DNA of 64,000 nt from Pelagomonas calceolata. Taxonomy: Eukaryota > Sar > Pelagophyceae > Pelagomonadales > Pelagomonadaceae. The stretch lies in the NCBI GenBank assembly GCA_918797485.1, contig CAKKNE010000001.1:1860001-1924000 (forward strand), read 5' to 3'. A program made the position numbers and the translations under genes. The notes beneath the pieces were generated by a model. The model made no database searches. It was not told where the DNA came from and saw nothing but the letters and a program-made list of their open reading frames with translations. This document shows, piece after piece, positions 705 to 62,298 of the stretch; within the stretch, counting starts at the first letter, position 1; every line of letters starts with the position of its first letter.

Positions 705-725
705 CTAGTGTCTTACAGCCGCTAG
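705..725 (+). promoter_or_regulatory. CTAG palindromic promoter element, copy 1
   Basis: Arms CTAGTG and CGCTAG flank TCTTACAGC. It lies between divergent genes, 248 bp from the minus-strand start at 457 and 335 bp before the ATG at 1060. Preceded by CTTG, as in several other copies. Nothing else is seen in the 458-1059 gap. Confidence 0.7.
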
Positions 726-1059
726 CTCGTTGCAAGCGCCGCAGAGCGTTTTTGAGCGAGCCGGCCACTTGCATTTGACTGCGCTGTGAGCGGCGGGACA
801 CTTGTTTGACGGCGCAAGCCACCCAGCCATAAAGCGGTCCGCGGTGAGTCGTCGCAAGCGCTGTTTTCAGCCGGAAGACGCGAGAGGCCTTTTTCTCGCA
901 GCAAACGCGTGCATAGACAGCGCGCGAGCGCGGCAGAGCGCAGCATCTCACTGCGCGCATCGGAGCGCGCAAGAAAAAAGGCTCGCCTCGACTCCCGCAC
1001 GCGAGCGCTCTCGGTGCTCCGCGAAAGCGCTCCGCGCACACCAAGCAAAACACCAAGCG

Positions 1060-2064
1060 ATGACGAAACTCACCTTCACCAAAGACGACCCGCCGCCGCC
1101 GGAGTCCCTGCCCGACGCGCCGCGCGCGCGCGCCGCCAGTGCCGCGACCGCCGCGCCGCCGGAAGCACCCGGCGAGGACGCGGCGGTCGACACGGAGTGG
1201 ACTGAGGAGGACGCGGCGTTCATGGCCGGCTGGGAGCAGAGCGACGAGAGCGATGTTAGTGATGGCGAGCCCTGCCCGTTCTGTGGGGGTCTGGGCCATT
1301 CGGTCGACGACTGCCCCATGCGGCGCGACACCAAGGGCGAGGTAGCTAAGGAGCAGCGGCCGGACCCCGTCGCGCGCTTGGTCGATGTGGTGGCCGACGC
1401 GGTCCTTGATGTGGCCGACGAGAATTTGTCAGCTTTCCTCGCGCGGCTCGCGGCGAACGGGCTGCGGGCGCAGCGGTACAACGACCTGGTCTCCGAATTG
1501 GTACCGGGCATCTGCGCCGACGCGGCGTTTGATCCTGAAATGTTAGCATCGAAATTCGAGGTGGATCCGGAGGGCCTCTTGTTATTGAGGGAGACCGTGC
1601 GGCGGGAGGTCGACAAATTACGGGCCACGCACGCGCTGCACAAAGACGACCTCACTGGTAACCTATCGCCGGAGCAGCTCTCCTCATTCTCTTCCGCAAA
1701 AACCTGGGACGACGACGATACGCGGGAGATGCCCGTGGAGCCTCCACCGCCGCCGCCGCCGCCGCCACCGCGCACCGTCGACCTCCCGGCCCTGGGCATC
1801 CGCGTGTCTGCCGACCCCACCGACGACGACGACGACAACGACGACCGCGACGAGGTCTTCGCGCGGTCGCCGAGCGGCCGCGTCGACTGGCGCGCGCCGG
1901 GCCAGCCCGTCGACGGCGCGTCGTCCGTGCGCCTTGCGCCCGTGCGCGAGGAAGGCGACGACAGTGGTGATGAGGACGACCTCCCCGCTGAGTACCTCGA
2001 GCGGCTCTCGAAGGACCTCGGGCGGTTGGTGGTGCAGGAGGGGCGGAGTCTGGACTCGTTTTAA
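1060..2064 (+). CDS. Zinc-knuckle (CCHC) acidic protein
   Basis: 334 residues, started at the ATG at 1060; an upstream extension of the frame begins at a non-ATG codon and is unlikely to be coding. Residues about 70-83 read CPFCGGLGHSVDDC, a CX2CX4HX4C zinc knuckle typical of RNA-binding proteins. The middle is a helical region (VARLVDVVADAVLDVADENLS), followed by a run of about ten prolines near residue 230 and Asp-rich stretches. An RNA-linked nuclear or cytoplasmic role is suggested only by the knuckle; the family is not recognised. Confidence 0.75.
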   Translation: MTKLTFTKDDPPPPESLPDAPRARAASAATAAPPEAPGEDAAVDTEWTEEDAAFMAGWEQSDESDVSDGEPCPFCGGLGHSVDDCPMRRDTKGEVAKEQRPDPVARLVDVVADAVLDVADENLSAFLARLAANGLRAQRYNDLVSELVPGICADAAFDPEMLASKFEVDPEGLLLLRETVRREVDKLRATHALHKDDLTGNLSPEQLSSFSSAKTWDDDDTREMPVEPPPPPPPPPPRTVDLPALGIRVSADPTDDDDDNDDRDEVFARSPSGRVDWRAPGQPVDGASSVRLAPVREEGDDSGDEDDLPAEYLERLSKDLGRLVVQEGRSLDSF

Positions 2065-2259
2065 TATGCAAGTAGAGTAGTCTTTTGCGCGGCGATGGCG
2101 TTACCCCGGGTTGGAAGACTCCGCGCCTCGCCGGCTCGACGACGGGCCGCGTCTTTCATAACAGCATACTTCCGTCTTATTAGAACCGGCTCAGCACACT
2201 TCCCGGCGATGTTTAGCAACGGTAGTTTAACGTGCGTACAATTCATCAGATTCTGCTTG

Positions 2260-2279
2260 CTAGTATCTTAGCACGCTAG
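2260..2279 (+). promoter_or_regulatory. CTAG palindromic promoter element, copy 2
   Basis: A 20-bp variant with arms CTAGTA and CGCTAG and core TCTTAGCA, preceded by GCTTG. It lies 148 bp before the UROD start codon at 2427, in the gap 2065-2426, where nothing else is seen. Confidence 0.65.
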
Positions 2280-2426
2280 CTAGTTACACTTGCTGCGTCG
2301 TAGGATCGACATTACCGCTGCAAGCTGACCCGGTGCAGCACATCGTTGCGAGCGGTAACAGCCGTGAAACGATAACGCACCGCGTCATTGCAGCAATTAT
2401 CGCTTAACAAAGCTTCAAGCAGCAAG

Positions 2427-3569
2427 ATGCGCCAAGCATTGCTGTGCGCGGCGACGGCCGCAGCGTTACAAGCACCGGCGAACGATTTGGTATTAAGACT
2501 AGCACGAGGCGAGCAAGTAGAGCGGGCCCCGGTCTGGCTCTTCCGCCAGGCGGGCCGGCATATGCAAGAGTACCGCGACTACAAGGCCAAGACGGGCAAG
2601 CACTTCCTCCAGCTGTTAGACGACCCGAAGGACGTCGCCGAGGTGACGATGCAGCCTCTTAGGCGGTATGCGGTCGATGCTGCCATCTTGTTCAGTGATA
2701 TTTTAGTGGTTCCGCAAGCGCTCGACATTCGCGTCGAGATGCCGGGCGGTGTTGGTATTGTGGTGCCGGAGCCGCTGACTTCCGCTGCCATGGCGGACGA
2801 GGCCGCGGCGAAGGCGAGGGCGGATCCTGCTTCACTTGTAGCAAAGCGACTGAAGCATGTGACGCGCGGCGTCGAGGAGATTAGGTCTGCGCAATTGGCC
2901 GAGAACTTAGATAGAACGCTACTCGGCTTCTCCGCGGCGCCCTACACGCTGTTCTTCTACTCTGTAGGTGGTTCTTCCAAGAACCAGGCGCCTGGCGCTC
3001 AATTCAGCAAGGAGAACGCCCAGAGCACACAAAATTTGCTGGAGGCCTACACGGACCTAGTCGTAGAATATCTGTCGGCCCAGGCGGACGCGGGAGCCCA
3101 CGCGTTGCAAGTTTTTGAAGCGATGGGCATGACGTTGGGGGCCAAAATGTTCGAGGAACTCGCTTTACCGCATCTGGAAGCCCTGGCGTCGAAGCTGAAA
3201 GCTAGACATCCGGACGTGCCTCTGCTGGTCTTCGCTAGAGGTGTCGAGGACCCTCTGTCGGTCAACCTGCGACTCCAGAAGGCGGGCTACGACGTCATCA
3301 CGCTAGATGGGGAAGCCCACCGCTCAAAGAGCCGCGATGCGTTAGGTGCTTCCCAAGTGCTCCAGGGCAACTTCGACCCGAAACTCCTGCTGCCGGACTC
3401 GTCTCAAGAAGCCATCCACGCCGAGGTCGTGGCGATGCTCGAGGCGTTCGGGCCGGACAAGCTCCTCGCGAATTTGGGCGAGGGCCTCGGGGGCAAGGAG
3501 GACCAGGGGCTGGTCGACTTCTTCGTGAATGATATTCATGCCACGTCCGCGAAGATGATCTCAGGATAA
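2427..3569 (+). CDS. Uroporphyrinogen decarboxylase, plastid-targeted
   Basis: 380 residues. It would catalyse the four decarboxylations of uroporphyrinogen III to coproporphyrinogen III in haem/chlorophyll synthesis. Family marks: FRQAGRHMQEYR near residue 38, DAAILFSDILVVPQAL with the substrate-binding Asp, the PYTLFFYSVGG region, and LQGNFDP. The N-terminus MRQALLCAATAAALQAP looks like a signal peptide with an Ala-Pro cut, fitting a plastid leader. Odd point: the usual NLGHG near the C-terminus reads NLGEG here, so the conserved His is replaced by Glu; the LDW motif is also LDG. It may be a diverged isoform. The ATG is the first in frame; the upstream extension starts at TTG. Its stop lies 6 bp from the convergent MORN gene's stop. 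Confidence 0.93.
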   Translation: MRQALLCAATAAALQAPANDLVLRLARGEQVERAPVWLFRQAGRHMQEYRDYKAKTGKHFLQLLDDPKDVAEVTMQPLRRYAVDAAILFSDILVVPQALDIRVEMPGGVGIVVPEPLTSAAMADEAAAKARADPASLVAKRLKHVTRGVEEIRSAQLAENLDRTLLGFSAAPYTLFFYSVGGSSKNQAPGAQFSKENAQSTQNLLEAYTDLVVEYLSAQADAGAHALQVFEAMGMTLGAKMFEELALPHLEALASKLKARHPDVPLLVFARGVEDPLSVNLRLQKAGYDVITLDGEAHRSKSRDALGASQVLQGNFDPKLLLPDSSQEAIHAEVVAMLEAFGPDKLLANLGEGLGGKEDQGLVDFFVNDIHATSAKMISG

Positions 3570-3575
3570 ATATAC

Positions 3576-4316
3576 TTATTCCGCCGTCGAGGGCATGTCT
3601 CCCTTCCAAAGGGTTTCGATCACTGCACCGTCGACGTCGACAAACACACCACTTCCGTTCCTCTCGCCCCTCTCCCAGAGTCCTCGGTGGCTCGCGCCCG
3701 ACGCGTAGCGCATCTCGCCGTAGCCGTTCGGCTTGCCGTCGCGGAATTCGCCGTGGTAGGTATCTCCATTCAGCGACACGAGCATGCCCCAGCCCTCGCG
3801 CGTCAAACAGTCGTCGGCGAAATCTCCGAGGTACATCGCGCCGTCGTCGCAGCGACGTCGTCCGTACTTGCGGCCCGCCGCGTCCGTCGCCAGGACGTCC
3901 ACGACGTCGGCGTACATCGGCTCGCGGCGCTGCTTGGGTTCTCGCCGCGCCTCGCGCCGCCGCGACTGCCGGTATTGCTTCGCAGGCGACGGATGATTCG
4001 TCTCGTCCGGCCGCAGGCAGAAGTCGGCCAGGGTAGCACTCATGTCAAAATGTGGGGTTGAGCAGTGGGGAACCGTCCCAGCAGTGCTACGATGATTCGT
4101 CTCGTCCGGCCGCAGGCAGAAGTCGGCCAGGGTAGCACTCATGTCAAAATGTGGGGTTGAGCAGTGGGAACCGTGTCGCCTATGCGATGGCGTCGCGGCG
4201 GCTCGCGTGTCAGTGGTAAAGGCAGCCCCGAGGTCTTTGCTCGCGCGCAGCGACGTGCGCGAAGCGCTGTGCTTTGCGCTGCGGCCCCATCGCAACGGAT
4301 TTTGATTTTCAGCCAT
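3576..4316 (-). CDS. MORN-repeat protein with duplicated start region
   Basis: Up to 246 residues from the ATG at 4316; in-frame ATGs also lie at 4142 and 4043. About three MORN repeats are seen in the C-terminal half (YLGDF..., YHGEFRDGKPNGYGEM, HRGLWERGERNGSGVF). MORN repeats usually bind membranes or scaffold the cytoskeleton; no enzyme domain follows. The N-terminal part holds two copies of MSATLADFCLRPDETNH, spaced 33 residues, encoded by a 99-bp-period tandem duplication (3992-4174). The duplicate includes the ATG and the sequence before it, so the ancestral start was probably the MSATL methionine. Either 4043 or 4142 could be used today. Confidence 0.75.
   Translation of the reverse strand: MAENQNPLRWGRSAKHSASRTSLRASKDLGAAFTTDTRAAATPSHRRHGSHCSTPHFDMSATLADFCLRPDETNHRSTAGTVPHCSTPHFDMSATLADFCLRPDETNHPSPAKQYRQSRRREARREPKQRREPMYADVVDVLATDAAGRKYGRRRCDDGAMYLGDFADDCLTREGWGMLVSLNGDTYHGEFRDGKPNGYGEMRYASGASHRGLWERGERNGSGVFVDVDGAVIETLWKGDMPSTAE
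3992..4174. repeat. 99-bp-period tandem duplication over a start codon
   Basis: Copy one is about 3992-4076 and copy two about 4091-4174. Each is about 84 bp and nearly identical, apart from one G in a G-run, with a 15-bp spacer. The duplication is in frame with the MORN gene (33 codons). Confidence 0.9.
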
Positions 4317-5695: not shown

Positions 5696-5701
5696 GTAAG
5701 A

Positions 5702-6189: not shown

Positions 6190-6211
6190 CTAGCGTCATG
6201 TAACATACTAG
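6190..6211 (-). promoter_or_regulatory. CTAG palindromic promoter element, copy 3a
   Basis: Read on the minus strand: CTAGTA, core TGTTACATGA, CGCTAG (22 bp). It is one of two elements in the divergent HYPK/methyltransferase promoter, 192 bp from 5998 and 148 bp from 6359. Confidence 0.55.
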
Positions 6212-6233: not shown

Positions 6234-6261
6234 CTAGCGGCCTGTACAGGTAAGACACTAG
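6234..6261 (-). promoter_or_regulatory. CTAG palindromic promoter element, copy 3b (long spacer)
   Basis: Read on the minus strand: CTAGTG, TCTTAC, then CTGTACAGGC and CGCTAG. The spacer is about 7 bp longer than normal and contains its own palindrome CCTGTACAGG. Preceded by GCTTG. It lies 98 bp before the ATG at 6359. Confidence 0.55.
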
Positions 6262-9073: not shown

Positions 9074-9094
9074 CTAGCGTCTGTAAGACACTAG
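9074..9094 (-). promoter_or_regulatory. CTAG palindromic promoter element, copy 4
   Basis: Minus-strand reading: CTAGTG, core TCTTACAGA, CGCTAG. It lies 222 bp before the channel start at 9316. Nothing else is seen in the gap 9016-9315. Confidence 0.7.
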
Positions 9095-12730: not shown

Positions 12731-13049
12731 TGGTAGCAATACAACAATACTCTGGACAGGGTACTCGCCCGAAGACGATGCAACTACGCGTCGGAAGCAG
12801 AGAAAACCCGTTTTGCCTGTGGTTTTGCCGCACCGCAACGCATCAGTCCCCAGAGCCACTACAGCCCTCCCTAGCCCCCCAAATAACCCTCGGACCCCTC
12901 GACGGGCACCTGACAGAATCGGGTGGTTCGCATCACGCGTTGCAACAGCGCCGTGCGGCAGCGCTCGCTCCGAGGCCGAGGGGCCTGCCCGTTCGAGGCG
13001 CAGGGCATTGTACATAATTGTACATAGGGCTGCCGACGCGCACGTAAGC

Positions 13050-16000
13050 ATGGCGCATCTCCCAGCCATGGACACCATCGCAACCCTCAAGTCCCTCAGC
13101 CCCAAGCGTCGGAGGAAGAAGGACGCCCAAGTGATTGTGGACGCCCCACCCCAAGAGCTGCGTGTCGGGGATGTCGTCTTTCTCGGGGATGGCACGGACG
13201 GCTACCTGGCTTCCGACGCGCTCGGCGCGCGCGTGTCGTTCAAGCGCGGCGAGGGCGGCGGCGTCCCGACCTACAAGCTTGGCTGTCTGTGGCAGCTCTT
13301 CCCCGATTCCGACTATCGGCGGCGGGAACGACTTGTGAGATTAGGTGATGCCTTCGAGCTTCGCAAGGCCCTCAAAGCAGCTGCTGTCCAAGAGAAACAG
13401 GAGTCCGACGCCGTCGTGAAGGACGTCGAGAGCGGTGCTTTGAAGGATACGGCGCAGTACGGCGAGGAGTTTCATATTAGGCACGTGGTTACCGGGCGAT
13501 GGTTACGGGGTGATGGCGAGCCCGCAGAAGGTGGTGGCGGTTGTTTGAGGTTATCTCTAGCCACTGATTTAGAGAGGTCAAAATACTGCCGCTTTCGCAT
13601 CGCGCCGGGCTATCGGGCTCGAGGTCTCGGGACGCCGGTCTTCGACGGCGACGGCGTGCGACTGGAGGCCCAGGCTCTGACGCTGTCGCCGAACCATCCC
13701 GCGAGGCTGCAACCGACGTCCGATAACGAGGCCGCATTGGCTCTTGGTAGTACGCACAACTTGACCGTAACGAGGTTCGCGGAGCGCGCCCCGGGCCAAG
13801 CCGCGACAGGTACGGTCGATGCCCTGCAGTTCGTCCGATTGTTCCATCGAGAAGACGATACGTTGTTAGTGGCCTCGACGAATGCTCGCTTGAAGACCGG
13901 CCCGAAACGAGAACCGTACTTACGGCACATCTCGCGGAGAAAAGAATCCCCGGGCAAAGGGCTGTGGATCCTGGAGTTCGAAGATCCGTTGACGGGCGGA
14001 GCGTTCTCTTTTGAGCGGAAGGTGCGACTCAGGCACGCTTGTAGCGACCGGCATCTGGCTGTGGCCTACGGCGAACGCGGTACGAAGGGCCCGGCGGCAC
14101 CAGAACTAGTGGACCTAAAACAGGACGCCAAGAAAGGCGCTCTCGTGAGATCGCTATTCCGGTTGAAGCCCGTGCGCGACCATGAAGCTTCCAGTGGTTT
14201 TGCCTGCCTCATTACTCATGACGTGAGACCGAAGAGTAGAGATGGCGACCGCACGACGTTGTACCTCAAAGCCTCGGAACCAAAAAAGGACCGATCTCGA
14301 CGCATTGTCTTCGAGGACAACTCGACGGTATCGTTAGGGGCCTCGTTAGGCGCGACTGTCGAAGTACATATTGAAATCGGCCCCGAGGCGTTGACGCTGC
14401 AGGCGTTAAAAGCTGCCAGGACCGCGGTGGAAGAACACACGGAGTTCGTGCGGCGAGTCGGTCGCGACGAGGAGAACGTGGATGATTGCGCGGCGCGGGC
14501 GAAGATCCTCCGAGCGGAGAACGCGCTGCGAGGGGCCCTATCTTGCTTGAGAACCTCAAACGATAATGATTTGGAGGCCTTTGCGAACGCGCAGACGGAG
14601 GAGCAGCACAAAGACGACGATGGGGACGGCGTCGACGACGACGTAGAGCTATCCTTCGAGCACACGGGACCGGTGGACGCCGCCGCGCAGTCCATGACGC
14701 GGGAGGTGAAGCTGATCGATGCTTTGGCGAGAGCGATCGCTTGCGTCAAAACTTCCGGAATCAAGTACCCGCCGGCGCCGGGCGAGCAGCACGACCCGCG
14801 CTTCGGACCTTTGGAGGAGTTCCACCAACTCGCGTATGCCGTCTTAGTCACAAGTGTGAGAGACAACCGGCGCAACGAGACCTACTTCGCGAAAGGTAGA
14901 CTGGTAAAAGAGGAAAACAAACCGGAGGCGGGCGCGTTCATCGACCAGGTCATCGCAGAAGTCAGTGAACCGCTCGGCGCGCCGGAGCTGCTGACGACAC
15001 TTATAGCGAACAATTTGGATCTGACGCACCAGTTGGTGGACAAGAGGATGCTGCACCAGCTGGCCGGGTTTGTAGGTGATCACGGCCCGCGACCGGACTT
15101 GGCCCAAATCCTAGCAGCTACCCTATCGTGCCACGGGAAAGCCATACCGGGCGTGCAGGAGATGGTCGTGTCCACTTTATTCACGAAAGACGTCTCAGAG
15201 TTGTTCCGGAGGACGTTCCTCGAGACTAGTGTCGTGCGAGGTGATACGGCGTTCCGAGCCTGCGAGTGGCCCTGCGCGAAGGTCGACGATCCTCCGGATG
15301 GCTTTCTAGGCTATGAGGAGCTCGAAAGGGGCTGCCCGCCGGTCTGCGTGCGGTGGTTAGGGTCTGCTAGTTATCCTGATGACGCATTGTTCTACGACGC
15401 GCAAACTTTAGGATTGAGGACCGATAGCAACGGCTGGGTCGAACTGCGAGAGCTAACGAGGGAGCTCGACGACAAGATCTACCAGCACGCGCTGCGGGGT
15501 GCCAAAAATGAACCGGCCGCGACCGACCGCATCAATCGGAGGAGACAACTCGCGGCGTACTACGTCGAACAGATCAAGTTGGTGGCGCTATGCTGCCAGG
15601 ACCGATCTTATAATGCCATCGATGTCTTCGAGGGGACTTTTTCGTACGGGTGCTGTCTGTGGGTGCTCGCGGATGACACGTATCCCGATTTGCTACGAGC
15701 TGCTTTCGCTTTCTTGTTGAGAAGCTTACATGTAGACAGATCACCGCATCGGCCTCGATGCGGCTATCCGGTCCTACCGAAACGGGCTTGGGCCGTCGAG
15801 ACGCTCGTCGCACCGCAAACACCGCTGGAACATTTACCTAGGTTTGCGACGAATACAAATAACCCCTCGACGAAGTTCTATCTGTTGAAGGAATTCGTCC
15901 GATCCTATCTAGCTGATCGAGATACGTGTACGTTCAACAATCCAGCAAGAAATGCCCTGACGCTGCAGGTCCTGGAAGTGGTGGACGACTTGGTGGACTT

Positions 16001-19000
16001 CGGCTTCTACGCTACTTCTGATCACTTACGCAAATTACTAGGTCCGTTGTTCAGTGTTTTGGCGAGTGACGACCACCAAGCGAGTGAGGCCCAGCAATCC
16101 AAAACAATTATCCTGAGGATCGTTGGTCGCATATTGGGCATGCTCGGGCAATGCCTCATACAAGCTGCTCTCACCGAATTCCTGGCGATCAGAGACGAGC
16201 CTCAAATAGAGGTAAAGAGAAAACGGCCAAAAACTCCCAAAAAACGCAGGGGCTCCTTGTTTAGATCTCGGAAAATAATTCCCGTGGACGAGGCCGAAGA
16301 TCGACGGTCCTCGCAGGCGGAACGGTTTTTGGCTCTGTTAGATCCGCCGGCGCGCAACGAACGGAGCGACGAGGGGCTGTCAAATGAAGCGATACAACTA
16401 GAATTGCGGTTGCGGAAGTCGAGGGCGTTGGCCGAAGCGGTAGATTTAGCAGCGATGTGCGGCAAGTCCGATAGCGAGTTAGACGAGTTGTTGTTACGAC
16501 TTGCGGGTTCGGGAAGTGACGATTTGTTAAGAGAAGTACTCGCAGTGACGAAAGCGCTTAGATGCCCTACGTCACAGTTGTTGAGAATCATGGAGGATTG
16601 TGTGGTTGTCGACAGCGACGCGGCGCGGACCATTTATCAAACGCTGTCGTCGACGGAGCAGATCGACCCGATAGATACCATACCTCATTTATCAGGCATG
16701 ACCGCCGAGCTCTCGGACCTGGCGCAACGTTCCGAGCAGTGGGTCTTGTTGTCGGATCAACGAGCTTTAATGTTTAGACAGCGGGCGGAAGACATCCTAC
16801 GAACGTTGGGCAGACTCCTAGATCCCTCTTTGACAAATGACAAGCTCAAGACCCACCAGCACATCTTACTTAAATGTGGATTAGCTCCATCAATAATGGA
16901 AGCATTAGAAGTAGAAAAACCACCTGACTTGAGTGATGACGGGAGTCTGAGAGCTTTCCACGAGGCTGCCGGCATTGTTGCCAGTCGTTTACTAGCCCAA
17001 CATCCGGCCGCGCAACGAGCGGTAGTAGATAGATTGGCAGCCTCGATGCTCCAGTTGGTCAAAGACGAGTCGAGACTAGAGCTAAAAAAGACGCCGCGGC
17101 GCGCCTCGAACGATGATCTGCGAGCGCCTAAAGAGAAGAGTGACGACCTGCCCTGGAAGGTCCAGTGGCGCCGGGCGGCGAAGAAAGCCGTGGCTATTAA
17201 GGCGATGGCGGCTGGTCAGTCAGTAGTACACGATGATCACGACGACGCGTTTCGCTTAGCCCAATGCGTCTGCGGGACCTTCGGCGGTAACTCGTTGTTG
17301 TGTGAAGAAAAAGCTTCATTGTTCTTCGAGCCTTTAGTTGGAGTTGTTGAGAGACTACTAGAGGACGGCGGTGGGTCGGCGGAGGTCGCGTGCGTGCAGG
17401 CGTTGCAGGTGCTGGTCTGTCCCGGGCCTAGGAGGGAGGATGTCTGTCGTCGCAATCAGAAGCTGCTGGATACGTCGTTGCTCGCTAGGTTACGTGGTTC
17501 GTCGTCGATCGTCGACGCGGTCGTCGTAGATACTCCTGCGAAGCGTCGAGCGGTTTTGAAAGACCAATTGGTCCACTCGTCGTTGATAGCGTTGTTGGGA
17601 TTGGGCTGTCGGTCGCATAATATGCCCGTGGCCGTCGATGTTGTATCGTTGGTACCCTTCAAGCAACTGCTCTGGGGCTTGTGTTATGGGAATGCTTCGA
17701 CGATCAGATCCTATGTCGACGTGGCCAGGGAAGGGCATTTTGATGATGGGTCCATGCACGCGCACCGGTTGGATCTGTATGATGACGTGTTCTGGGGTAC
17801 TGCTTTGAGGTTGTGTGCGTTAGCGCTACCGGCAGATAGACGGTTAGCTTACGTGCGGACGGCCGACAGTCGAAACCGAGGCGACGCCTGGTTCTCCTCA
17901 CTCACACATAGTGAAGGGCAAGCGTGCACGGTCAATGAAATAGATGATTCGATCGACGACGACCGGCTACCGGCGCAAGCTTTACGCTTAGGTCGACCCA
18001 TACATTTAGTAAGGAACTCCCTACCCAGCGTGCGAAAGGCGGCCCAGGGCGCCGTGAACGCGTTCCTAAGAAGACTACTCACGGCAAGAGAATATAGAGG
18101 CTACCGCGTCTCCGACGTGGCCGCGGCGGCCGGCTCCGACACTGCTTTTTGCTTCTCGGACTTGCTACGACGCCTCATCGACGCGGAGGAGATTGATTTA
18201 GATATGCCCGCTTTGCAGGAAGTGTCGAAGATCGCCCAACATATCAGTATGCACGCGAACGGGTCGGATGATGATGTGTCCGTGAGGGACGGCCCTTGTG
18301 GCTTCGGCTCCGTGCAGAACGAGCGGTTCGCGGCGTCCATGGATCGGTACCGGAACATCCCTCCCCAAGTGACGGAGATTTCTGAGGAGAAGCGTCTGCG
18401 ATGCGTCGACTACGCTCGAATTGTGGGCAATCACGATTCCGTGGCGGCGGCCGTCATCGCTGAGGAAAGATCTCTGGTGCGGGCCTACCGCCACGTCGGA
18501 GATATTAGGGATGAAGCCGAATTCCTACAAAGACTTACGGAAGAGGACTGGGAGGTTTCTGATCAGAAATACAGGCGCCCGGGCGACCCGAGAAGTTTCC
18601 ACGACTTGCGAGACGTCGCCCTGGTCCACTTCCCCGAATATTTGATCGATGACGACCCGGACCACTGGAACCGGTTGCAGACGCGACTGTTTGCGTTTGC
18701 AGCTCGACAGTATCAAAAACGGGGCACCGGCGAGAAGTCTGGAGCTCGCGCTTTAATCTTCGACATGCTCTTTGCGCACTTGTGTGAATTGAGAGCGTAT
18801 ACCTGGGCGGCGCGCGACGCGGCGCTCCAAAAGGCCGCGGCCGATCTACAACGGAGGAAGGCCCACAAGGAGTTCGCGCGGTTAAGTGCGGCGCGGAACG
18901 CGTCGTCGGCTCTGAGGATCGTTAATAGCGCCCCGGTCGAGGTCTGCCTGATTTTAATTGTTATTGCCTCCTTCTTAGCTGTTTATGTGGGAGGCAAAGC

Positions 19001-22000
19001 GTATCAGAGAAGTTATGTTGCGCAATTGGCCGTCGGGGTGTCCGTGTCCATTATTTTTTCTCTAGAATTATTATTCAGAGTTGCCGCCCACACGGCCATC
19101 GCCAAATCATTAACAAGAGGTCTCGACGAGTGTTTTAAAGATCCTATCCGGTACATCGACCTGTTGTGTATTGTGTTGGAGCTCGTCGACTTATTGTCGT
19201 TGATAAGTACAAAGGAAAACAGTGGAAGTGGGTTCCGCGGGGCCTGGCTCCGGCTCGTGAAGGTCTTCCGGTTTTTTAAATTTTTAAAAGCGTTGAAGGC
19301 CGTCCGCTTGACGCGATTACTACGGTCGGAGGCCGTGCGCGAGGTGCTCTACAATTTCTATTTGTTCCTCCAGGCGGCGTTCGGCGTCGTCGACGTGATC
19401 CAGGATCATAGCAGCGCGATGACGCGCGCGACGCATCTGCGGGAGAAGCGCACGGCTTTTAGGGATGCGCAGGCGGCCCTGCTCGACGATAGCCCTGGGC
19501 AGTCCGGCGCGCAGGTGCTCATGAGCGTATTACTCGCGAAGCCCTCGGGGCTGCGGACCGCGGCCCTTAGGTTAGCGACGGGTATCGTCGTGGACGCGAA
19601 TAGAACGGCACAAGCGTGGTTCACGGAACGGCTCAAGGATGGAGAAGTCCTACGCGTAGCAGCAGATGAATTCCGAGCGACGTGCAATCACTTAGAGAGG
19701 CACCATCGGCGACGCCGGGCGGGCCAGCACACGGCGTTGGACGAGGAATTATTAAGGGGCTGTGCCTGGACGGTCAAGTTCATCACTTCCCTATTAGTCG
19801 GCCAGCACGGCCCGATGCAGGAGCTGTGCACGCGGCAGGCGTCGATGCTGGCCGCGGTCAACATTTTGCAGGAGCTCGAGCATTTACTCCAAGCCTTGGC
19901 CGATAGCACGTCCGACGACCCGCGTTTATTTTCGTCGCAGCAGTCCTCGGTAGAAAAGTTTCTCGTGGTCGGCGTCATGGAGTGCGTCGCGGCGTCGATG
20001 GACGGCGCCAACGCCGCGAATCAAGCGTTCGTCGCGGCTTCTGGTGTTCCTGACTTGCTGGCGGCCTTCTTAGCCCTACCTATAAATGATGTGATCGGCG
20101 AGGATCATTTAACGGAGATCGCCGCGTATTTGGGGAGGCGGGCGGCCATCGCGACCTTGGATAGCATGGTCGAGGGCTTATCTTTACGAAGCCCGCAAGT
20201 CCAATCATTACGAACGCGGCTCCCGAAGGGCCTGCTGAGTCGCATATTGAATGAATGCGCACCGGTCCATCGGAAGGTGCGCACACCTCGGGCCCAGCCG
20301 CCCTTCGACTACTTCATTGAAAGTGGTGATTTATCATCACCGGAAGCTTTGGAACGGCTCCACAATGAAAAATTAGAGGCCGTCGCCGACCTTGTCGTAA
20401 GGGCTCATGCTTTACGGGTTAAATTGTGGCACTTTGGGGTTTCTGATGGGCCTTTCTCGAATCTGTTGGGGGAGGTCGACGTGCGGTGGCGGGGACGAGT
20501 AGAACGAGTCTTCTTCGAGCTGCCGGAGTGGAGCGGTTCATTAACAACCGTAGCTAGGCAGCGCTTCGAGCAGAACGTGGACTTGACGAGCGCGGAGACG
20601 CGGATGCGGCAGCTCTTCGAGGACGGCGAGGGGATCATAAGGGAGGCGCGGTACCTGTACCGGATCGAGGAGTTGTCGAAGGTCTTCCAGATCGTGAACA
20701 AGAGGTACATTCCCCTGAAATATCGCTTGTACTTCCTGGCGTTGATCTTAAATCTCCACATGATGCTCTCGTCCACGGGCGACGGTGCCATCACCTGGGC
20801 CAATTCTGAGGAAAGAGGCAATAGCACGGCGGCTCTTTGTTTAGCCATCCCCACGCTGCTGGGCTACGGCGCCATGTGCGCGTACACGTTCATCTGCAAA
20901 TTTAAGACGACGGTCGACACGCACGTCGCAAGGACCTTGGAGGAGCGCGCCAACGCTCATGGGTTTGATGAGCGAGTAGAGGACCAGTTCTCCGCTCTGT
21001 TGTTAGGTAGCGCGACCCTCGCCAAGACCCAGCTCAAGTCGGCGATCGGCTTCACGACTGATGTTACTAAGACCATACAAGACACCGCCAAAAATGTCCT
21101 CGCTGACGATGACGACTCCACCGCGAATAGCTCGGCCAAGTGGGTCAACGACATGCTGGGGGAAGATAAAAATATGTTCAAAACTTCGTCGAGTGATGAC
21201 AATAATGTATATGAGCGCATGTCGTGGTGGGAGCCGTGTCTCGCGTATGGTCTCGGGATTGTGGTGTATGGTCTGAAGTTCGGCTGGAGCCTGACCATGG
21301 TATGGGGCACTTTAGTTTTAGTTGGCTTGTGCCTACCGGGAGCTTTCCGGAAAGCTAGAGATGATCCCTATACTACTTTTGATTTGATCGCGATTGCCGC
21401 TTACGATGCTATTACGCAGGATTTAGGTGTATGTGGTAATCTCGTATGTGTGGCTGTCGCGCTGATGGGCTTCAAGTGGCAGTACGTCTGGATCTTGCTA
21501 CTGTTAGATATTTTACTCATTTCTGATGATCTGCAAAATGTGCTCATGTCCGTCTGGATCCCGAAGGCGCAGCTGGTACTGGCGTTCTACTTCACGCTCG
21601 TCAGTATTGGGATATTGTCGGTGATGACGTTCTTCGTCGCCCAACAAGATTCAACAGGAACGATGAGCGACACGCACGACTGGAGTGGAGAAAATTCAGG
21701 AGGCGTCGGTCCGTTACCTGCTCCGGCGCACGTCGATGATGTTTATGATGATGAATATCATCATAACTTTGTGTGTCGTACTCCTTGGACTTGTTTCCTG
21801 AGAGATGTGTACATTGGCTTGATCGACGGGCAATTATTCACGGCGACGCTAGCGATGGAATATGGGGATGACCTCGACCCGTCGGACGCGATGAAGCGGA
21901 AGAATAACCTGGCGCGGATCTTCATACAATTGGTGTTTTTTATAGTGGTTACGTTATTACTGATCAACGTGTTTACGGGTATCATCCTCGATACGTTTTC

Positions 22001-22481: not shown

Positions 22482-23129
22482 GGGGGGAATTCGTAGTAAC
22501 AAGTTATTAGTTGATTCGTCGCGGCGACGGGCGTGCTGGCGTAGTCTTTCTCCGGCGCGCGCGGCGTGCCGGGCAATTCTGGAGCATGGTAAAAAAAAGT
22601 CGGTCAGTCACTGACTGACGATGACGACGGTACGTGCAACTTGCGGGATTTTTTGGAGAATGGTCAAGTCGGTCGATCATGAATCTAATACCGGTTCCTA
22701 TGTCCTGTGTAATAGTGGGGTCGCTGATATATTTTAGGTTTTAATCCCAGCCCGTTTTAAAGACCTTACCCCTATGACGACGGGTCGCGCAGCTTGCGGG
22801 ATTATTTGGAGAATGCTCAAGTCGGTCGATCATAAATGTAATAACGGTTCCTATGTCCGGTGGAATACCCCGCGTCGCTGTAGTCGCAGCTTTGATCCCC
22901 CGTGCCGTTTTAAATACCTTACCTTACCCCTATTACTAACCAGTTAGTAACCAGTTGCTGACCAGTAGTTACTGACCAGTAAGTGAAGAGGGCTACCACT
23001 CCTAGGACGCGAGTGGACGCCGGTAGCGTCACGATTGAGTGAGTTAGTATGAACAAGGTTAGTTTAGCAGTGGGGAAGCGGTCGCGCCGGTTTCCGGGCG
23101 CGGGTCGAGCGAGGATCAGCGTGCGAATT
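22482..23129. other. Gene-free stretch with repeats
   Basis: Between the channel stop and the convergent AsmA-like gene. It starts with a GTCGCGGCGACGG-type sequence near 22511, followed by a 153-bp-period direct duplication (22621-22930) and a cluster of short ACCAGT units (about 22935-22985). No open frame looks coding. Confidence 0.7.
22621..22930 (+). repeat. Two tandem copies of a SINE-like dispersed repeat (U1, U2)
   Basis: Copies start at 22621 and 22774 (period 153). Shared parts: ATGACGACGG, CTTGCGGGAT, AAGTCGGTCGATCAT, CGGTTCCTATGTCC and a GTCGCTG segment, followed by GGTTTTAATCCC in U1 or GCTTTGATCCC in U2, which resemble a tRNA B box (GGTTCRANTCC). The same head and body recur inverted at 44925-45031 and 45230-45321. 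Transcription by RNA polymerase III is inference. Confidence 0.6.
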
Positions 23130-29805: not shown

Positions 29806-29827
29806 CTAGTGTCTTACATGCCGCTAG
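29806..29827 (+). promoter_or_regulatory. CTAG palindromic promoter element, copy 5
   Basis: CTAGTG, core TCTTACATGC, CGCTAG (22 bp). It lies between the divergent RTC (198 bp) and FKBP (126 bp) start codons. Nothing else is seen in 29609-29952. Confidence 0.7.
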
Positions 29828-33382: not shown

Positions 33383-34633
33383 ATGCGGATCATATTGCTG
33401 GCGTGCGCGACGACGCACGCCCTGATAGCCCCGCAGCGGCGGCAACCAGCCAAAACGATTCGCTACGTGAAGGTCGACACGGACAACTTTTTCTTCAAGG
33501 CGCTCGACGGCGCGAAGGAGCTCGCGTTCAGGGCCGGAGATTTGTTGGAGGACGCGGGCGACGTGGCGAAGGACGCGATGGACCGCGCGAAGGAGGCCCG
33601 GGCGCCGAAGCCGCCCGCCGATGCCGCAGCTGCGAAGGTACCAGTCAAGAAGGCGCCGTTCGACCTCGCGAGCGCGTTCAACAAGGCACCAGCCGCGCTG
33701 AAGGTCGCCGCGCCGCCGGCCGCGCCGGTCGCCAAGAAGAAGGCGCCCTTCGATTTCGGCGGCCTCGCGAGCGCGGTGCAAGCGAAGAAGCCGAGCGCCA
33801 AACAGGCGCCATTTGATTTCAAGGCAGCGAACGAGGCCTCCAAGGCGCGCGTCGACGCCGCGTTCGCGTCCCTCGACGCCGCGACCGACGCGCTCCAAGC
33901 GGCACCGGAGGCCGCCGCGGAGACGGCCGCGTCGTTCCTGAAAGCGCTACAGGGCGCCGCCGCGGCCGTCGCCAAGGCGCCCGACCAAGCCAAGGAGGCG
34001 CTCGACGCGACGACCGCCGCCGTCGAGGCCACGGCCGAGTCGATTGCGGCCCTCCCCGACAACGTCAAGAGTACCGCGGACAGCGTCGGGTCCGCGGTCA
34101 CGGGCACCGTCGACGCGGTCGCGTCCATCCCGGAGAACGTGAAGAACACGGCGGACAGCGTCTCGTCGACGGTCAAGTCGACGGCGGACGCCGTGGCTTC
34201 CATCCCGGAGACCGTAAAGTCGACGGCCGAGGCCGTGGCGGCCGTACCAGAGAAAATTGGAAACGCCGTCGACAGTGCGGTGGCGACGGCCGAGGCCGTG
34301 GCCGCGGTGCCGGGCAAAATTGCGGACGGCGTCGCTGGCTTTTCCGCGTGGCTCCAGAGCGTCCTGCCCAAGGGCCCGCCGCAGCTGCGGCCACCGCCCG
34401 ACCAGCTCCGGTCGGCGCAACCTGCACCAAAGAAGAAGTGGGGCCGGCCGATGGAGCTTCCAAAGGAGGAGCCGGTCGCGGCGCCACCAAAGGCCTCACC
34501 GACCGCCGCCCCGGTCATCGACGTCGAGGCCTACGTCCCCGCGGCGACTTCCGAGACGGAGTGGGCCGAAATGGAAACCAAGGAGCGCTCGGCGAAGAAG
34601 CCGGCGCCTACGTCGTATTTGGACGGGCTCTAG
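33383..34633 (+). CDS. Repeat-rich plastid protein of unknown function
   Basis: 416 residues from ATG 33383. The leader MRIILLACATTHALIAP fits a stramenopile plastid presequence. Residues about 90-160 hold three KAPFD(L/F) repeats (VKKAPFDLASAF, KKKAPFDFGGLA, KQAPFDFKAAN), each with an Ala-rich tail. Residues about 210-320 hold a run of amphipathic 20-odd-residue repeats around V-x-S-I-P-E-N-V-K-x-T-A-D-S-V, similar in style to LEA or lipid-droplet coating helices. The tail is Pro/Lys-rich. A role in coating a plastid membrane or lipid body is speculation. The gap 32999-33382 shows no CTAG element. Confidence 0.7.
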   Translation: MRIILLACATTHALIAPQRRQPAKTIRYVKVDTDNFFFKALDGAKELAFRAGDLLEDAGDVAKDAMDRAKEARAPKPPADAAAAKVPVKKAPFDLASAFNKAPAALKVAAPPAAPVAKKKAPFDFGGLASAVQAKKPSAKQAPFDFKAANEASKARVDAAFASLDAATDALQAAPEAAAETAASFLKALQGAAAAVAKAPDQAKEALDATTAAVEATAESIAALPDNVKSTADSVGSAVTGTVDAVASIPENVKNTADSVSSTVKSTADAVASIPETVKSTAEAVAAVPEKIGNAVDSAVATAEAVAAVPGKIADGVAGFSAWLQSVLPKGPPQLRPPPDQLRSAQPAPKKKWGRPMELPKEEPVAAPPKASPTAAPVIDVEAYVPAATSETEWAEMETKERSAKKPAPTSYLDGL

Positions 34634-39447: not shown

Positions 39448-39468
39448 CTAGCGTCCGTAACACACTAG
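39448..39468 (-). promoter_or_regulatory. CTAG palindromic promoter element, copy 6
   Basis: Minus-strand reading: CTAGTG, core TGTTACGGA, CGCTAG. It is almost midway between the divergent starts at 39322 (126 bp) and 39585 (117 bp). Confidence 0.72.
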
Positions 39469-42575: not shown

Positions 42576-42596
42576 CTAGTGTGTCTCAGGCGCTAG
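42576..42596 (+). promoter_or_regulatory. CTAG palindromic promoter element, copy 7
   Basis: CTAGTG, core TGTCTCAGG, CGCTAG, preceded by GCTTG. It lies 154 bp from the start at 42422 and 331 bp from 42927. Nothing else is seen in 42423-42926. Confidence 0.65.
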
Positions 42597-44451: not shown

Positions 44452-44924
44452 CGAAGCCTGAAATTCGGGGCTAGCGTAATCGACTTACTAGCAAATTCAA
44501 AAATACGCCTCGATAGCGTCAAAAGAATGACCCAAATTCAGAATACACCCCAGTCGATCGCCGCGACCAAAGATTTCAGAATAGCTGCCCGGGAACATAC
44601 CCTCGCGCCTCCCGGAAGGCACCGCCCGCGACATTCACGGATGACCCTTACGGCTCGCCAAAATACACCAGCGATTGACAGCGCCATTTCCCATCCAAAT
44701 AAGACATTATATCAACTCCAGCCCAGTTTTCATACAAGTTCGACGGAACCGGAGCCGACGGCCCGCGCTCGGAGGGCGGGAACAGAATTCTACTAGACAA
44801 CTCTCGCGTTTATGTTCGTTTCCTTCCGTTTGTTGGTGGTAGAGTCCATCTAACCCGCATCAGCGACCACTGAGCTATTTTAGATGTTCCGTTAGAGCCG
44901 CGCGAAACGACGAATCCGTGACCC

Positions 44925-46924: not shown

Positions 46925-46946
46925 CTAGTGTCTTACCGGACGCTAG
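46925..46946 (+). promoter_or_regulatory. CTAG palindromic promoter element, copy 8
   Basis: CTAGTG, core TCTTACCGGA, CGCTAG (22 bp). It lies between divergent genes, 212 bp from 46713 and 269 bp from 47215. Nothing else is seen in the gap 46714-47214. Confidence 0.7.
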
Positions 46947-48893: not shown

Positions 48894-49887
48894 AGCTGTC
48901 TGCACAGTCCGCAATGGGCCAAAGCGCTGCTCGCGCGGTGCACGTGTGTAGGCAGCGGTCCTCCGACAAACCAGCGGCCCCCAATTCAGTCTGTGGCGGC
49001 CACTGTCCTGAGCTAAAGTTTGTTGTGCTTGCCTAGCCTAGCCTCTGCTTAACCGACGGGTTTTTGCGCGCGGTCTTGCGGGACCCCCCCAGGCGGATCC
49101 TGCTCCCAGACCCGACGGTGAAGACGTGACGCTGGATTCGGACCTTTAGAGGCCTGGTTCTAGTCGTCCATCCCCCCTGAGCTAGGCTAGCGTTCCCAAA
49201 ACCGAGTAACTAGTATATATACTTTCTTGCGGGACCCCTCCCCGCCCCAGGGGACTCGTCGCAGAGGTCGTGCAGCGATGTGCGGGAAAAAAAAGGGGAA
49301 CCGCCGCCGCACAACCTTGGTCTGCTGAACGCGGACGCGAAGGCGCTTTGCTTGAGACCCGACCCAGAGCTAGTCAAGGTATTCCGGATCCCGCCGCGCC
49401 GCCGCTCCGTGGAGTCGTGCCCGAGTGCCGCCGCCGACGAGTTGCCCGCGGCCCGCCGCCGGCCCGCCGCCGCACCCGCGGGTTAGTCACGAAAAACACT
49501 CCCGCGGTTGCAACATTGCGCCGACGAAGGACCCGGGGTGTAGTCATCGGAAGCAGCTTGAATTGCTGGGGTGAGTCAACATCGCCAATGAAGGCCCGTC
49601 GACCCGTTGAATTGCGAGGAAGCCGAGGATGAATCGCCTACTTGCCCAACATGTCACGCCGCTGCTTGCTAGGCTTGGATTCCTAGTGTGTTCAGACCGC
49701 TAGCTGCACAAAAAGACCCAGCGCCGTAGGAGCGCCGTACAGCTGTGCAGAGGTCAACGCCGACCGCTCATCATTTCTACTCAGTGGTACGCTGCGCTTG
49801 AGTAGCGTAAAAGCACCGCTCGAGCCACGCAGCAGCTTTGCTCTCACAGTGCAGGCTGCTGCAGCGCTGCAAAACACAGCCTCAGAG
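48894..49887. other. Long upstream spacer of the TRM13-like gene
   Basis: About 1 kb with no convincing gene. It has two CTTGCGGGACCCC stretches (near 49073 and 49227) resembling the CTTGCGGGAT head of the SINE-like repeat, a TATATATA run near 49214, CTAG element copy 9 (49683-49703), and a short direct repeat reaching into the next start codon. A 68-codon plus-strand frame at 49280 shows no domain. Confidence 0.5.
49683..49703 (+). promoter_or_regulatory. CTAG palindromic promoter element, copy 9
   Basis: CTAGTG, core TGTTCAGAC, CGCTAG. It lies 185 bp before the ATG at 49888. Confidence 0.65.
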
Positions 49888-54855: not shown

Positions 54856-54876
54856 CTAGTGTCTTACAGCCGCTAG
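54856..54876 (+). promoter_or_regulatory. CTAG palindromic promoter element, copy 10
   Basis: Identical over all 21 bp to copy 1 (CTAGTG, TCTTACAGC, CGCTAG). It lies 147 bp from the J-domain gene start at 54709 and 397 bp from the U-box start at 55273. Confidence 0.75.
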
Positions 54877-57769: not shown

Positions 57770-57789
57770 ATAGTGTGTCAATACGCTAG
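57770..57789 (+). promoter_or_regulatory. CTAG promoter element, degenerate copy 11
   Basis: ATAGTG, core TGTCAATA, CGCTAG: the first C is changed to A. It lies between divergent genes, 209 bp from 57561 and 254 bp from 58043. Nothing else is seen in 57562-58042. Confidence 0.5.
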
Positions 57790-58837: not shown

Positions 58838-58842
58838 CTGTC

Positions 58843-58862: not shown

Positions 58863-58935
58863 AAAAAATATAACTAAGTTTTCCTGTTTTTTACTTGTAT
58901 GCCACTGCGCTTCTCGCAGTAGTCCTACTCGTCGT

Positions 58936-59934: not shown

Positions 59935-60308
59935 TGTAGCTGCGGTAGCAGTGTGTTTCACTCCAAAGCGGCGGCGCGCGCGGCTGGTGGCGACGGCTCG
60001 CCTGTTCTACTGCTGGGACGCGTTGCCACGCCTGTCCTCGAGAGCTGGCACTGCGTGTGCAGCCCGCAGCGGCTCCAAGTGTCGTCTCGCCGGCAGCAAC
60101 AAGTCTGCCTGAGAGCCTCAGCGATGCGGGTCTTTTGCTCAATCTACGCCGTCTGCAGCAAGCAAGAGGGCTCCCTGGAGACGCCTCGGCCCGGGACGGC
60201 TATCGTGCAGAGGGACACTAGCTGCGATTGCATGCCTGCCTCTGCGACTCAGCCTTGCTTTTTGCTGCACGAATAGCTGACCTGTGCAAGTAGCGCTCGC
60301 ATTGCAGG

Positions 60309-60788
60309 ATGGCCGGCGATAAGCCCAACCCGACGCAGCGCCCGGCGCCGGCGCGAGGGCCTGGCGGCGGCGCCCTCCAGCAGCGCAAGCGCCCGGCGCG
60401 GACCGCCAGCGGCGGCCGGCGGCCGCAGCAGCAGCCCGGCATCCTGCGCTTCTACGCCGAGGAGACGCCGGGCCTCAAGATCGGGCCGACGACCGTACGC
60501 GGCCGCGTCGCTTTTATTTTTATTGCAGTTTATTGCAACCGTGGCCTTATCATTCGCATCGGAGGGACGCATCGATGGCGTGGAGGTGGTGGAGATCCCA
60601 CCGGCACGCCATCGCCGCGACCGTCGCCGAATGCACCTCACGCGACGCACGCGCAGGTTCTGGTGATGTCCGTCATGTTCGTCGGCTTTGTGGTGCTCCT
60701 CCACATCTACGGCAAGCTCACGGCCGTGCCCGACGCGGTCGACGAGGACCCGATCATGCCCGAGACCCCGGGCGCTGAGGGCGCCTAG
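60309..60788 (+). CDS. SEC61B: Sec61 translocon beta subunit (two exons)
   Basis: Exon 1 60309-60494, intron 60495-60656 (162 nt), exon 2 60657-60788; phase 0; 105 residues. The join gives LKIGPTT then VLVMSVMFVGFVVLLHIYGK, matching the strongly conserved 'GLKVGPxxVLVMSLxFIxxVxxLHIxGK' of Sec61 beta. The Pro/Arg-rich cytosolic N-terminus and single C-terminal helix are normal; the acidic tail after the helix (about 20 residues) is longer than usual. It is part of the ER protein-conducting channel. The intron begins GTACGCGG and contains the core in both orientations (CATCGATGGCGTGG, CACGCCATCGCCGCGACC). Confidence 0.93.
   Translation: MAGDKPNPTQRPAPARGPGGGALQQRKRPARTASGGRRPQQQPGILRFYAEETPGLKIGPTTVRGRVAFIFIAVYCNRGLIIRIGGTHRWRGGGGDPTGTPSPRPSPNAPHATHAQVLVMSVMFVGFVVLLHIYGKLTAVPDAVDEDPIMPETPGAEGA
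60495..60656 (+). mobile_element. Possible older introner element in SEC61B
   Basis: GT...AG intron with the core motif in both orientations about 45 bp apart, able to fold. Flanking octamers GTACGCGG and GTTCTGGT do not match, so the insertion signature is lost if it existed. Confidence 0.4.
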
Positions 60789-60807
60789 GGACTACTAAGA
60801 TTCTTCG

Positions 60808-62115
60808 TTAGTTACCGCGCGTGCCGAATTTCTGCGCCCACTCGTCGTAGCGTTCGAGCAGAGATGCGTCCGCGCTCGGCTTGATGACTCTCAAAGCCTT
60901 GGCGAAGTCCGTTTTTTTGCATGGGCGCACATCCTTGATATTGATAGATGCGATGCGCTCGCCGAGTTCCCGCAAAGGCTCCTGGACGGCGTCCTCCGCG
61001 AGCAATCGTAGGTCGGACGCTGAGTAATTTTCAGTGGCATTGACGATCGCGGCCCGGTCGGCCGCGGATATTTTTTGGGCGACGTCGCCCCGATCAAGGA
61101 GACCATCCAAGATGACCCTTCTCGCAGTAGAATCAGGCAGTGGTATGAGGACCCGTCTAGGTACGCGTCGTAACAAGGCATCATCGAGGTCCCAGGGACG
61201 GTTCGTCGCGGCCATAAACAAAATCCGATCTTCCCTGGAAGTGCCGGCGCCGTCGAGCTGCACAAGGAACTCCGTCTTCATCCTCCTGGAACTCTCCTGG
61301 TCGCCGTCGCCGCGCGCCGACAGTAATGAGTCGACCTCGTCGAGGAAGATGACCGAGGGCTGGCGCTCCCGAGCGATCCGGAACAGCGCGCGGACCATTT
61401 TTTCGCTTTCACCCACGTACTTGGACGTCAGCGACGCCGCAGATGCGGCGAAGAAGCTCTTAGCGTTGGACTCCGTAGCGACGGCCTTGGCCAAGAAAGT
61501 CTTGCCCGTGCCCGGCGGCCCGAAGAGGAGCACACCCCGTGGTGGCGCCCGGAGCCCTCGGTAGAGGTCCGGTCTCAAGTTCGGCAACACAACAGCTTCT
61601 TTCAGAGTGCGTTTGGCAGCTTCCAACCCGGCCACGTCCGCCCACCTAACAGCTGAAGAACCGTCGAGCATCTCCTGGAGCACGCGCGCTTCGAAGGGGT
61701 CGCGCACGATGTTCTCTGGCGCGGCTGGCGGCGGCGGCGAGGTGCGGCGTCGCGGCGCTTGCGGGGACGTGCGGCGGACCGGTTTTCGTGGAGGCACCTT
61801 CGGCGGCCGCGGCCTGGCCCCATAATTGTCGTGGTCGGGGCGCTTCGCCTGCGCGAGCTGCTTGCACCGCTCCGCGCGCGCCATGTACTCTTCGACGGTC
61901 TTCAGGATGACGGCCCGCTTCGGCTCGTCACTCTCAGATTGATGGCGCTCTATTAGTAATCTCAAGCCCTCCTCGTAGAGCATCACTGCTGTCGAGTACT
62001 GCTTGCTATCATCAAAACGGCGCGCGTCTTTCAATTTGGCCACGGCCGCCTCCACCTGGCCGTTGTCTTCATTTTGTTTCGGCTTCGACCGCATGCGTGC
62101 CAGGAGGGAGCTCAT
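60808..62115 (-). CDS. SPAST: Spastin-like microtubule-severing AAA ATPase
   Basis: 435 residues from ATG 62115. The N-terminal 70 residues form a MIT-type three-helix unit (QYSTAVMLYEEGLRLLIERH). A basic Pro/Arg linker follows (PRPPKVPPRKPVRR), as in the microtubule-binding region. The AAA domain has VRWADVAGLEAAKRTLKEAV, Walker A FGPPGTGKT, SAASLTSKYVGESEKMVRAL, Walker B VIFLDEVDSLL, MAATNRPWDLD, and the arginine fingers (LLRRVPRR). The LPNLRPDLYRGLRAPPRG block is diagnostic of spastin/fidgetin over VPS4 or katanin. No N-terminal hydrophobic hairpin is seen, so it resembles the short isoform. Confidence 0.92.
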   Translation of the reverse strand: MSSLLARMRSKPKQNEDNGQVEAAVAKLKDARRFDDSKQYSTAVMLYEEGLRLLIERHQSESDEPKRAVILKTVEEYMARAERCKQLAQAKRPDHDNYGARPRPPKVPPRKPVRRTSPQAPRRRTSPPPPAAPENIVRDPFEARVLQEMLDGSSAVRWADVAGLEAAKRTLKEAVVLPNLRPDLYRGLRAPPRGVLLFGPPGTGKTFLAKAVATESNAKSFFAASAASLTSKYVGESEKMVRALFRIARERQPSVIFLDEVDSLLSARGDGDQESSRRMKTEFLVQLDGAGTSREDRILFMAATNRPWDLDDALLRRVPRRVLIPLPDSTARRVILDGLLDRGDVAQKISAADRAAIVNATENYSASDLRLLAEDAVQEPLRELGERIASINIKDVRPCKKTDFAKALRVIKPSADASLLERYDEWAQKFGTRGN

Positions 62116-62276
62116 TGTTGTTGTCTCCTGTGCTGATCTCAGCGGTGCGCGTCGACTGGCGTGAAAGTGCTACCAGCTGGTCCAGGCGGTTGTCTGGGCT
62201 TCCTCTGGTGACTTTGGACCTCAGAACGATTCGTAGGCGATGCAAAGCCGCCGCAAAGCCACGAAAGTTGCTTGCG

Positions 62277-62298
62277 CTAGTGTGTCACAGGACGCTAG
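62277..62298 (+). promoter_or_regulatory. CTAG palindromic promoter element, copy 12
   Basis: CTAGTG, core TGTCACAGGA, CGCTAG (22 bp). It lies between divergent spastin (162 bp) and PX gene (214 bp) starts. Nothing else is seen in 62116-62511. Confidence 0.7.

Follow-up and report, generated by a model that had tools for sequence, protein, structure and literature searches.

In yeast, the sites of Reb1, Abf1 and Rap1 are specific sequences that lie upstream of many unrelated genes, independently of orientation and at divergent promoters. Animal motifs of the ZNF143, M1BP and NRF1 type carry high information and are found at thousands of housekeeping, often bidirectional, promoters. Another kind of precedent is TRE5-A, a retrotransposon of the compact Dictyostelium genome that, as described in two papers, targets positions near transfer RNA (tRNA) genes (PMC5391098, PMC5911963). 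Here we describe a motif of 20 to 23 bp, with the arms CTAGTG and CGCTAG, in a stretch of 64,000 nucleotides (the window, C1:1860001-1924000) of the pelagophyte Pelagomonas calceolata. Its position upstream of genes, its retention in a relative and its role as an insertion landmark make it probable that a protein not yet described docks there to organise promoters.

The original prediction listed 13 coordinates for this motif in the window, and all of them, read directly, carry sequence of the described kind. Nine fit the strict pattern CTAGYG-N..-CRCTAG (705, 9074, 29806, 39448, 42576, 46925, 49683, 54856, and 62277), whereas 200 first-order Markov simulations of the window average 0.08 strict matches and never exceed 1. 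Four fit a relaxed form: one arm reads CTAGTA at 2260 and 6190, 57770 has ATAG, and the site at 6234 spans 28 bp through a short insert. A weight matrix, trained on motif sites and then used to score the window and the sampled loci, gives 14 sites in the window, of which two weak intergenic ones (44471 and 60200) are new; 6234 is unscored. The copies at 705 and 54856 are identical across 21 bp, as first noted, and their similarity extends to 28 bp (96%) and then ends.

The motif is not only real but far more widespread than the window suggested. The assembly scanned comprises 32,445,274 bp in 8 contigs; the published genome, as presented in PMC9481584, consists of six nuclear contigs, one plastid contig and one mitochondrial contig, with 16,667 genes. 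Across the whole 32.4-Mb genome, the strict pattern occurs at 4085 sites, versus 63 for a reversed-pattern control; this pattern is its own reverse complement, so counts on both strands are identical places. The exact 22-mer CTAGTGTCTTACAGGCCGCTAG is found 386 times (200 + 186 on the two strands; control, 0), and the fixed 22-bp form with up to three mismatches 2385 times (1226 + 1159; control, 0 + 1, or 1 in all). Over the 194 kb made up of the window and 21 loci, matrix scores above 14 are reached 52 times versus 0 in the reversed sequence, and scores above 8 are reached 63 times versus 6, these loci (L010-L030) having been chosen for holding motif sites. Open-access literature agrees with the earlier statement that no motif of this form had been described: among the matches listed, none describes the motif, and the titles listed for a search by motif letters look unrelated. 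A term search of the main text of three P. calceolata papers (PMC9481584, PMC13284251, PMC12054182) found neither “motif” nor “promoter.”

The consensus is approximately GCTTG-CTAGTGTCTTACA-N1..3-CGCTAG-CT, where GCTTG ahead of the motif and CT behind it are favoured flanks. In the 52 sites of the window and loci L010-L030, the parts follow one another as CTAGTG, T, C or G, T, mostly TAC, free bases, and CGCTAG. The free bases past position 13 number one to three (four in 2 of the 52), and the motif measures 20, 21, 22, and 23 bp in 11, 12, 27, and 2 sites, respectively, a wider range than the one-base variation in arm spacing originally described. Nor is it the symmetric palindrome proposed for a dimer, as the arms differ by a fixed base (CTAGTG versus CTAGCG) and the TCTTACA-type core is present on one side only. 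Symmetric arms were seen by eye in 3 of 100 among the strict genomic sites listed, and at one local site. The left 13 positions carry about 17.5 bits of information and the right six 9.6 bits, which makes about 27 bits when flanks are disregarded and no gap penalty is applied. By eye, some sites, mainly shorter ones, have a second class of core (TGTCGA, TGTCAA, and similar). Free half-sites were also considered and set aside, being mostly not enriched after whole sites are masked (CTAGTGT, 4 versus 7 reversed; TGTCTTAC, 1 versus 1; with CTTGCTAG staying at 5 versus 1). Because most half-sites drop to background in this way, the whole word is the main unit.

Two variants of the motif were also recorded. 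By eye, a sub-class (e.g., L055, L083, and L085) carries an extra CTAG ten bases upstream, as CTAG-GGATGC-CTAGTG or CTAG-GCATCC-CTAGTG. A long-spacer form gives 29 forward and 29 reverse rows in the genome, versus 0 + 1 in the control, and in about 26 of these 58 rows, by eye, an insert of the CTGTAC-, CTGAAGTAC- or CTGTAAGTAC-type interrupts a consensus site at TTAC^AGG. The split sites mostly have unrelated flanks where these were read, L088 and L089 being one duplicated locus. Each short insert may be the footprint of an excision, or the long spacer may be a variant that is tolerated.

Positions relative to genes were taken from a simple three-periodic coding model, self-trained on the sampled DNA. 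Of 27 frames taken from the window, the majority picked for their agreement with the model, 16 exceed the curated cut-off of a Pfam family, which supports their strand. None of 93 sampled sites lies in coding sequence, although the model assigns about 75% of bases to coding sequence in the 194 kb from which 52 of them come; the sampled copies are therefore not spread evenly over exons and intergenic DNA. (The 93-site set leaves out L037, which duplicates part of L022; a 94-site set adds the 28-bp site at 6234.) By gap class, 49 of the 93 are divergent, 32 tandem, and 3 convergent, and 9 lie at sequence ends. In the window, a site is present in 11 of 16 divergent gaps, where the original prediction had counted eight sites between divergent genes, compared with 2 of 10 tandem and 1 of 12 convergent gaps (Fisher p 0.002 for divergent versus convergent and 0.04 versus tandem), and 24 of the 42 modelled gene starts have a site upstream.

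The placement within gaps is also constrained. Sites lie at a median distance of 211 bp from the modelled coding start, mostly 50-400 bp away, with 68 of 130 values falling within 150-250 bp. In divergent gaps, sites are more central than under uniform placement (standard deviation of the fractional position 0.157, Kolmogorov-Smirnov p 0.003), and in tandem gaps they lie at a median of 210 bp from the start versus 119 bp from the end of the upstream gene (p 0.005). Orientation in tandem gaps is 18 versus 14, with no clear bias and hence without the directionality of a core promoter element. This neutrality, together with the 200 versus 186 copies on the two strands, points to a DNA rather than an RNA element. 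A palindrome or RNA hairpin is ruled out by the unequal arms and the neutral orientation; Rfam, at gathering thresholds, gave no match in the window or in nine loci. As for the surroundings, neither of the two 300-bp flanks recurs at another site of the set for 78 of the 94 sites; the 16 with a shared flank, several being neighbours in one locus, do not form the pattern of a transposon terminal repeat.

The motif is also found in a second species. The strong motif occurs at four places in metagenome-assembled genomes (MAGs) labelled Spirochaeta, and a pattern search of two such MAGs gave nine motif-like strict sites in MED672 contigs plus one chance-like match. Aligned segments of L001, L004, L007, L008, and L009 are mostly 76-94% identical to the P. 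calceolata genome, and because of this we assign these contigs to a diverged pelagophyte. The orthologue tests leave out the strict match on G001 contig C92, whose arms are symmetric and which is taken as chance, and L002, which is nearly the same species; the relaxed sites L008 5364 and L009 2686 were outside the comparison. Eight of the nine strict sites of the relative have a counterpart in the orthologous P. calceolata gap. Six counterparts are at the aligned place (L004 2199, L004 4291, L007 9065, L008 2004, L008 8487, and L009 586), that of L004 5353 is at about the same position in reversed orientation, and that of L001 7907 is shifted with gap and orientation unchanged. At L008 8487, core and spacer differ between the species while both copies still fit the motif, and several conserved motifs are islands amid poorly alignable DNA.

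It is worth noting that MAGs labelled Spirochaeta contain pelagophyte contigs (L001, L003, L004, L007, L008, and L009 in MED672), and that L002 (CAJWEZ010000013.1) looks chimeric, being 90-96% identical to P. calceolata over 2043-3615 with bacterial-looking frames in the remainder. Foreign origins of the motif were rejected. The four bacterial-contig matches were in the Spirochaeta-labelled MAGs, and the tested parts of these are pelagophyte DNA (MED672 segments mostly at 76-94% identity, part of L002 at 90-96%). No viral contig has the strong pattern; the sole viral match to the relaxed pattern (L031) is attributed to chance, as it lies within a long coding frame that looks phage-like, and L031 has 42% GC and no other site above a score of 8 in 13 kb.

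A further line of evidence comes from a repeat first delimited in the relative at L004 299-455 (retroposon family a), which has 39 rows in the P. calceolata genome. Copies (loci L095-L138 and L004:299-455) were read for 36 of the 39 rows, leaving out C1:48383 and C1:25749, which are taken as duplicates of C5 copies, and C6:2246149. In 20 copies, the sequence is constant at one end (TGTTACGGTGCTAGGACTAGTGGGC) and variably truncated at the other, and 16 of the 36 copies have a clear target repeat of 8-15 bp. These three features lead us to attribute the family to target-primed retroposition, as for a 5'-truncated element without long terminal repeats. The 3' part of the element contains the end of an open frame that is at least 164 amino acids long; this C-terminal part, the portion searched, has no Pfam match and gave weak, unconvincing matches only against PDB (best E 0.083).

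Insertions of retroposon a often face the motif. A motif scoring above 8 lies on the truncated side in 30 of the 36 copies (within 150-432 bp of flank), and a whole motif lies within 150 bp on that side in 22, compared with 0 of 36 within 150 bp of the constant side. Since 32 of 1272 ordinary 150-bp windows hold a motif, about one would be expected per side of 36 copies. Four of the 30 motif-bearing copies score only 8-14; with scores above 14 alone, the counts are 26 of 36 overall, 19 within 150 bp, and 0 on the other side. Among the 16 copies with a clear target repeat, the end of the target duplication is 0-21 bp from the motif start in 13, one of which (L138) has a weak motif (8.4); the three exceptions are L127 (gap 135), L131 (gap 103), and L129 (beyond the motif). 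Both motif orientations occur beside the element. At L004 2199, the relative has retroposon a beside the motif, whereas P. calceolata has the same motif without the element (L030 8100), indicating that the motif there is older than the insertion or that the element was lost in P. calceolata. We take the insertion bias as independent evidence that the motif, or its putative binder, is recognised in the living cell. In the window, a weak (67%) match to the family at 2113..2195 (+, E 5e-4) has the motif at 2260 on its truncated side.

A second dispersed repeat, repeat b (GGAAGCCGCGCCCCGGGGACGG...CTCCTCAAACTGGCTCATTGCCG), lies close to the CGCTAG end of 4 of the 94 sites, at three loci. It was recorded at L046, L054, and L055 and at the insert-bearing loci L078, L080, L081, L087, and L092. 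A stretch resembling it is seen by eye in the relative (L001). Rfam gave no match for L046, L054, L055, L078, L080, and L081.

Taken together, the location outside coding sequence, the concentration upstream of genes and in divergent gaps, and the counterparts in a second species support well the originally proposed promoter-associated element that would be bound in either orientation. We consider it fairly probable that the motif is the bipartite site of one abundant, putative protein that binds DNA sequence-specifically and serves to mark or open promoters, above all those that are bidirectional. Between divergent genes, such a protein or complex would be seated roughly halfway from one start to the other; at a tandem gene, its place would be about 200 bp ahead of the gene. 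It would work in either orientation. It would mark and open the promoter as a nucleosome-depleted region, after which polymerase could start on one or both sides, and the retroposon may use the bound protein, or the DNA word itself, as an integration landmark, often landing within about 20 bp. A bolder version is possible but can be offered only tentatively: a single lineage-specific factor reading a word of 20-plus bp may serve about half of pelagophyte gene starts, replacing the familiar core-promoter words, and a retrotransposon may have evolved to land with its 5' end facing it.

Several observations weigh against a promoter-marking role, or temper it. The motif is not universal, as 18 of the window's 42 modelled gene starts lack a site, and 3 of 84 gap-classified sites are in convergent gaps. 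The gene starts come from our own self-trained model rather than the published annotation, and the loci outside the window were chosen for holding sites, so that the location figures describe sites and not all promoters. In the relative, the site at L004 462 has no counterpart in P. calceolata, and since many gaps hold sites, retention within a shared gap counts for less than the six sites kept at aligned places.

Other explanations account for part of these data. A core promoter element at the transcription start, initiator-like or TATA-replacing, that directly positions RNA polymerase II would fit the location upstream of starts and the high information content (about 27 bits), but the even orientation (18 versus 14), the sharing of one site by two divergent genes, and the spread of distances to coding starts, mostly over 50-400 bp, make it unlikely. 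The divergent-gap preference and the orientation independence could belong to an element that genes keep out and thereby confine to gaps, such as a chromatin boundary, an insulator or a replication origin. A simple spacer element of this kind would not, however, be expected to avoid convergent gaps, of which 1 of 12 in the window has a site, and the distance to starts is constrained, so we regard this alternative as very unlikely.

Mobile DNA offers two more. The short insertion distance suggests that the motif might be recognised by the endonuclease of the retroposon itself instead of by a host factor, much as R2 recognises 28S DNA. Yet this distance ranges from 0 to 21 bp and insertions occur beside motifs of either orientation, unlike the pattern of a fixed-cut endonuclease, and thousands of motif sites stand against a few dozen element copies among the matches listed. 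As this explanation moreover accounts for the insertions alone, we give it little credence. The motif itself might be a transposon end or a remnant of a miniature inverted-repeat transposable element (MITE) dispersed through the genome, considering that some sites adjoin repeat b or retroposon a and that related short inserts split the long-spacer sites. Most flanks do not extend into a longer repeat, however, given the 78 sites with no common flank, and neither the counterparts in the second species, nor the lack of coding copies, nor the absence of the element beside the conserved P. calceolata motif at L030 8100 fits such a remnant, which we consider extremely improbable.

The presence of one strong motif upstream of about half of the gene starts in the window would anchor promoter annotation, the design of synthetic promoters, and start-site mapping, and the motif is a bait for finding the putative factor. 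The retroposon bias is a natural record of recognition in the cell, and possibly a case of integration targeting to protein-coding promoters.

The genes next to the sites in the window are functionally varied. Divergent gaps hold the sites at 705..725 (+, score 32.7), 6190..6211 (-, 30.0), 39448..39468 (-, 29.6), 42576..42596 (+, 27.0), and 46925..46946 (+, 31.4), as well as those at 29806..29827 (+, 33.8) between genes for RNA 3'-phosphate cyclase and FKBP, at 49683..49703 (+, 22.8) upstream of a TRM13 gene, at 54856..54876 (+, 32.7) upstream of a U-box gene, and at 62277..62298 (+, 30.3) between genes for a MIT/AAA (VPS4-like) ATPase and a PX-domain protein. Also in divergent gaps, the degenerate ATAG site at 57770..57789 (+, 21.9) is between EF-hand and DUF938 genes, and the weak site at 60200..60221 (-, 17.8), absent from the original prediction, is between DnaJ and Sec61-beta genes. 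The gap with 6190 also contains the 28-bp site at 6234..6261 (-), with its short insert at TTAC^AGG; it is adjoined by GCGCGCGGGATTTCC, which by eye follows other motif sites too. Tandem gaps hold the CTAGTA-armed site at 2260..2279 (+, 24.3), upstream of a uroporphyrinogen decarboxylase gene, and the site at 9074..9094 (-, 32.7), upstream of an ion-channel gene, and the weak site at 44471..44491 (-, 15.3) is in a gap classed as convergent. Elsewhere in the window, positions 12813-22481 form one open frame of 3222 amino acids, and there are local direct duplications at 3992-4174 (85 bp, 99% identity), 22621-22923 (about 150 bp, 80%), and 34017-34230 (139 bp, 73%).

Among known systems, the closest functional parallel would be the yeast general regulatory factors, by analogy and without a claim of membership. 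Like their sites, the P. calceolata motif lies at what the gene models suggest are promoters of many unrelated genes with varied neighbours, and its counts show no clear orientation bias; it differs in being longer and, as far as is known, of different sequence. With the ZNF143, M1BP and NRF1 type, it shares a high-information motif at thousands of promoter-side places, and we know of no sequence similarity between them. The oomycete core promoter elements, as far as PMC3599244 sets them out, are likewise stramenopile promoter elements obtained from genome-wide sequence analysis, but they are core promoter elements around the start, whereas the P. calceolata motif is orientation-neutral, with coding starts about 200 bp away. 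Finally, as in the published accounts of TRE5-A, retroposon a integrates at a set place beside putatively factor-bound genes; unlike TRE5-A, it is seen solely as truncated 3' ends, and its landmark is a motif beside protein-coding genes.

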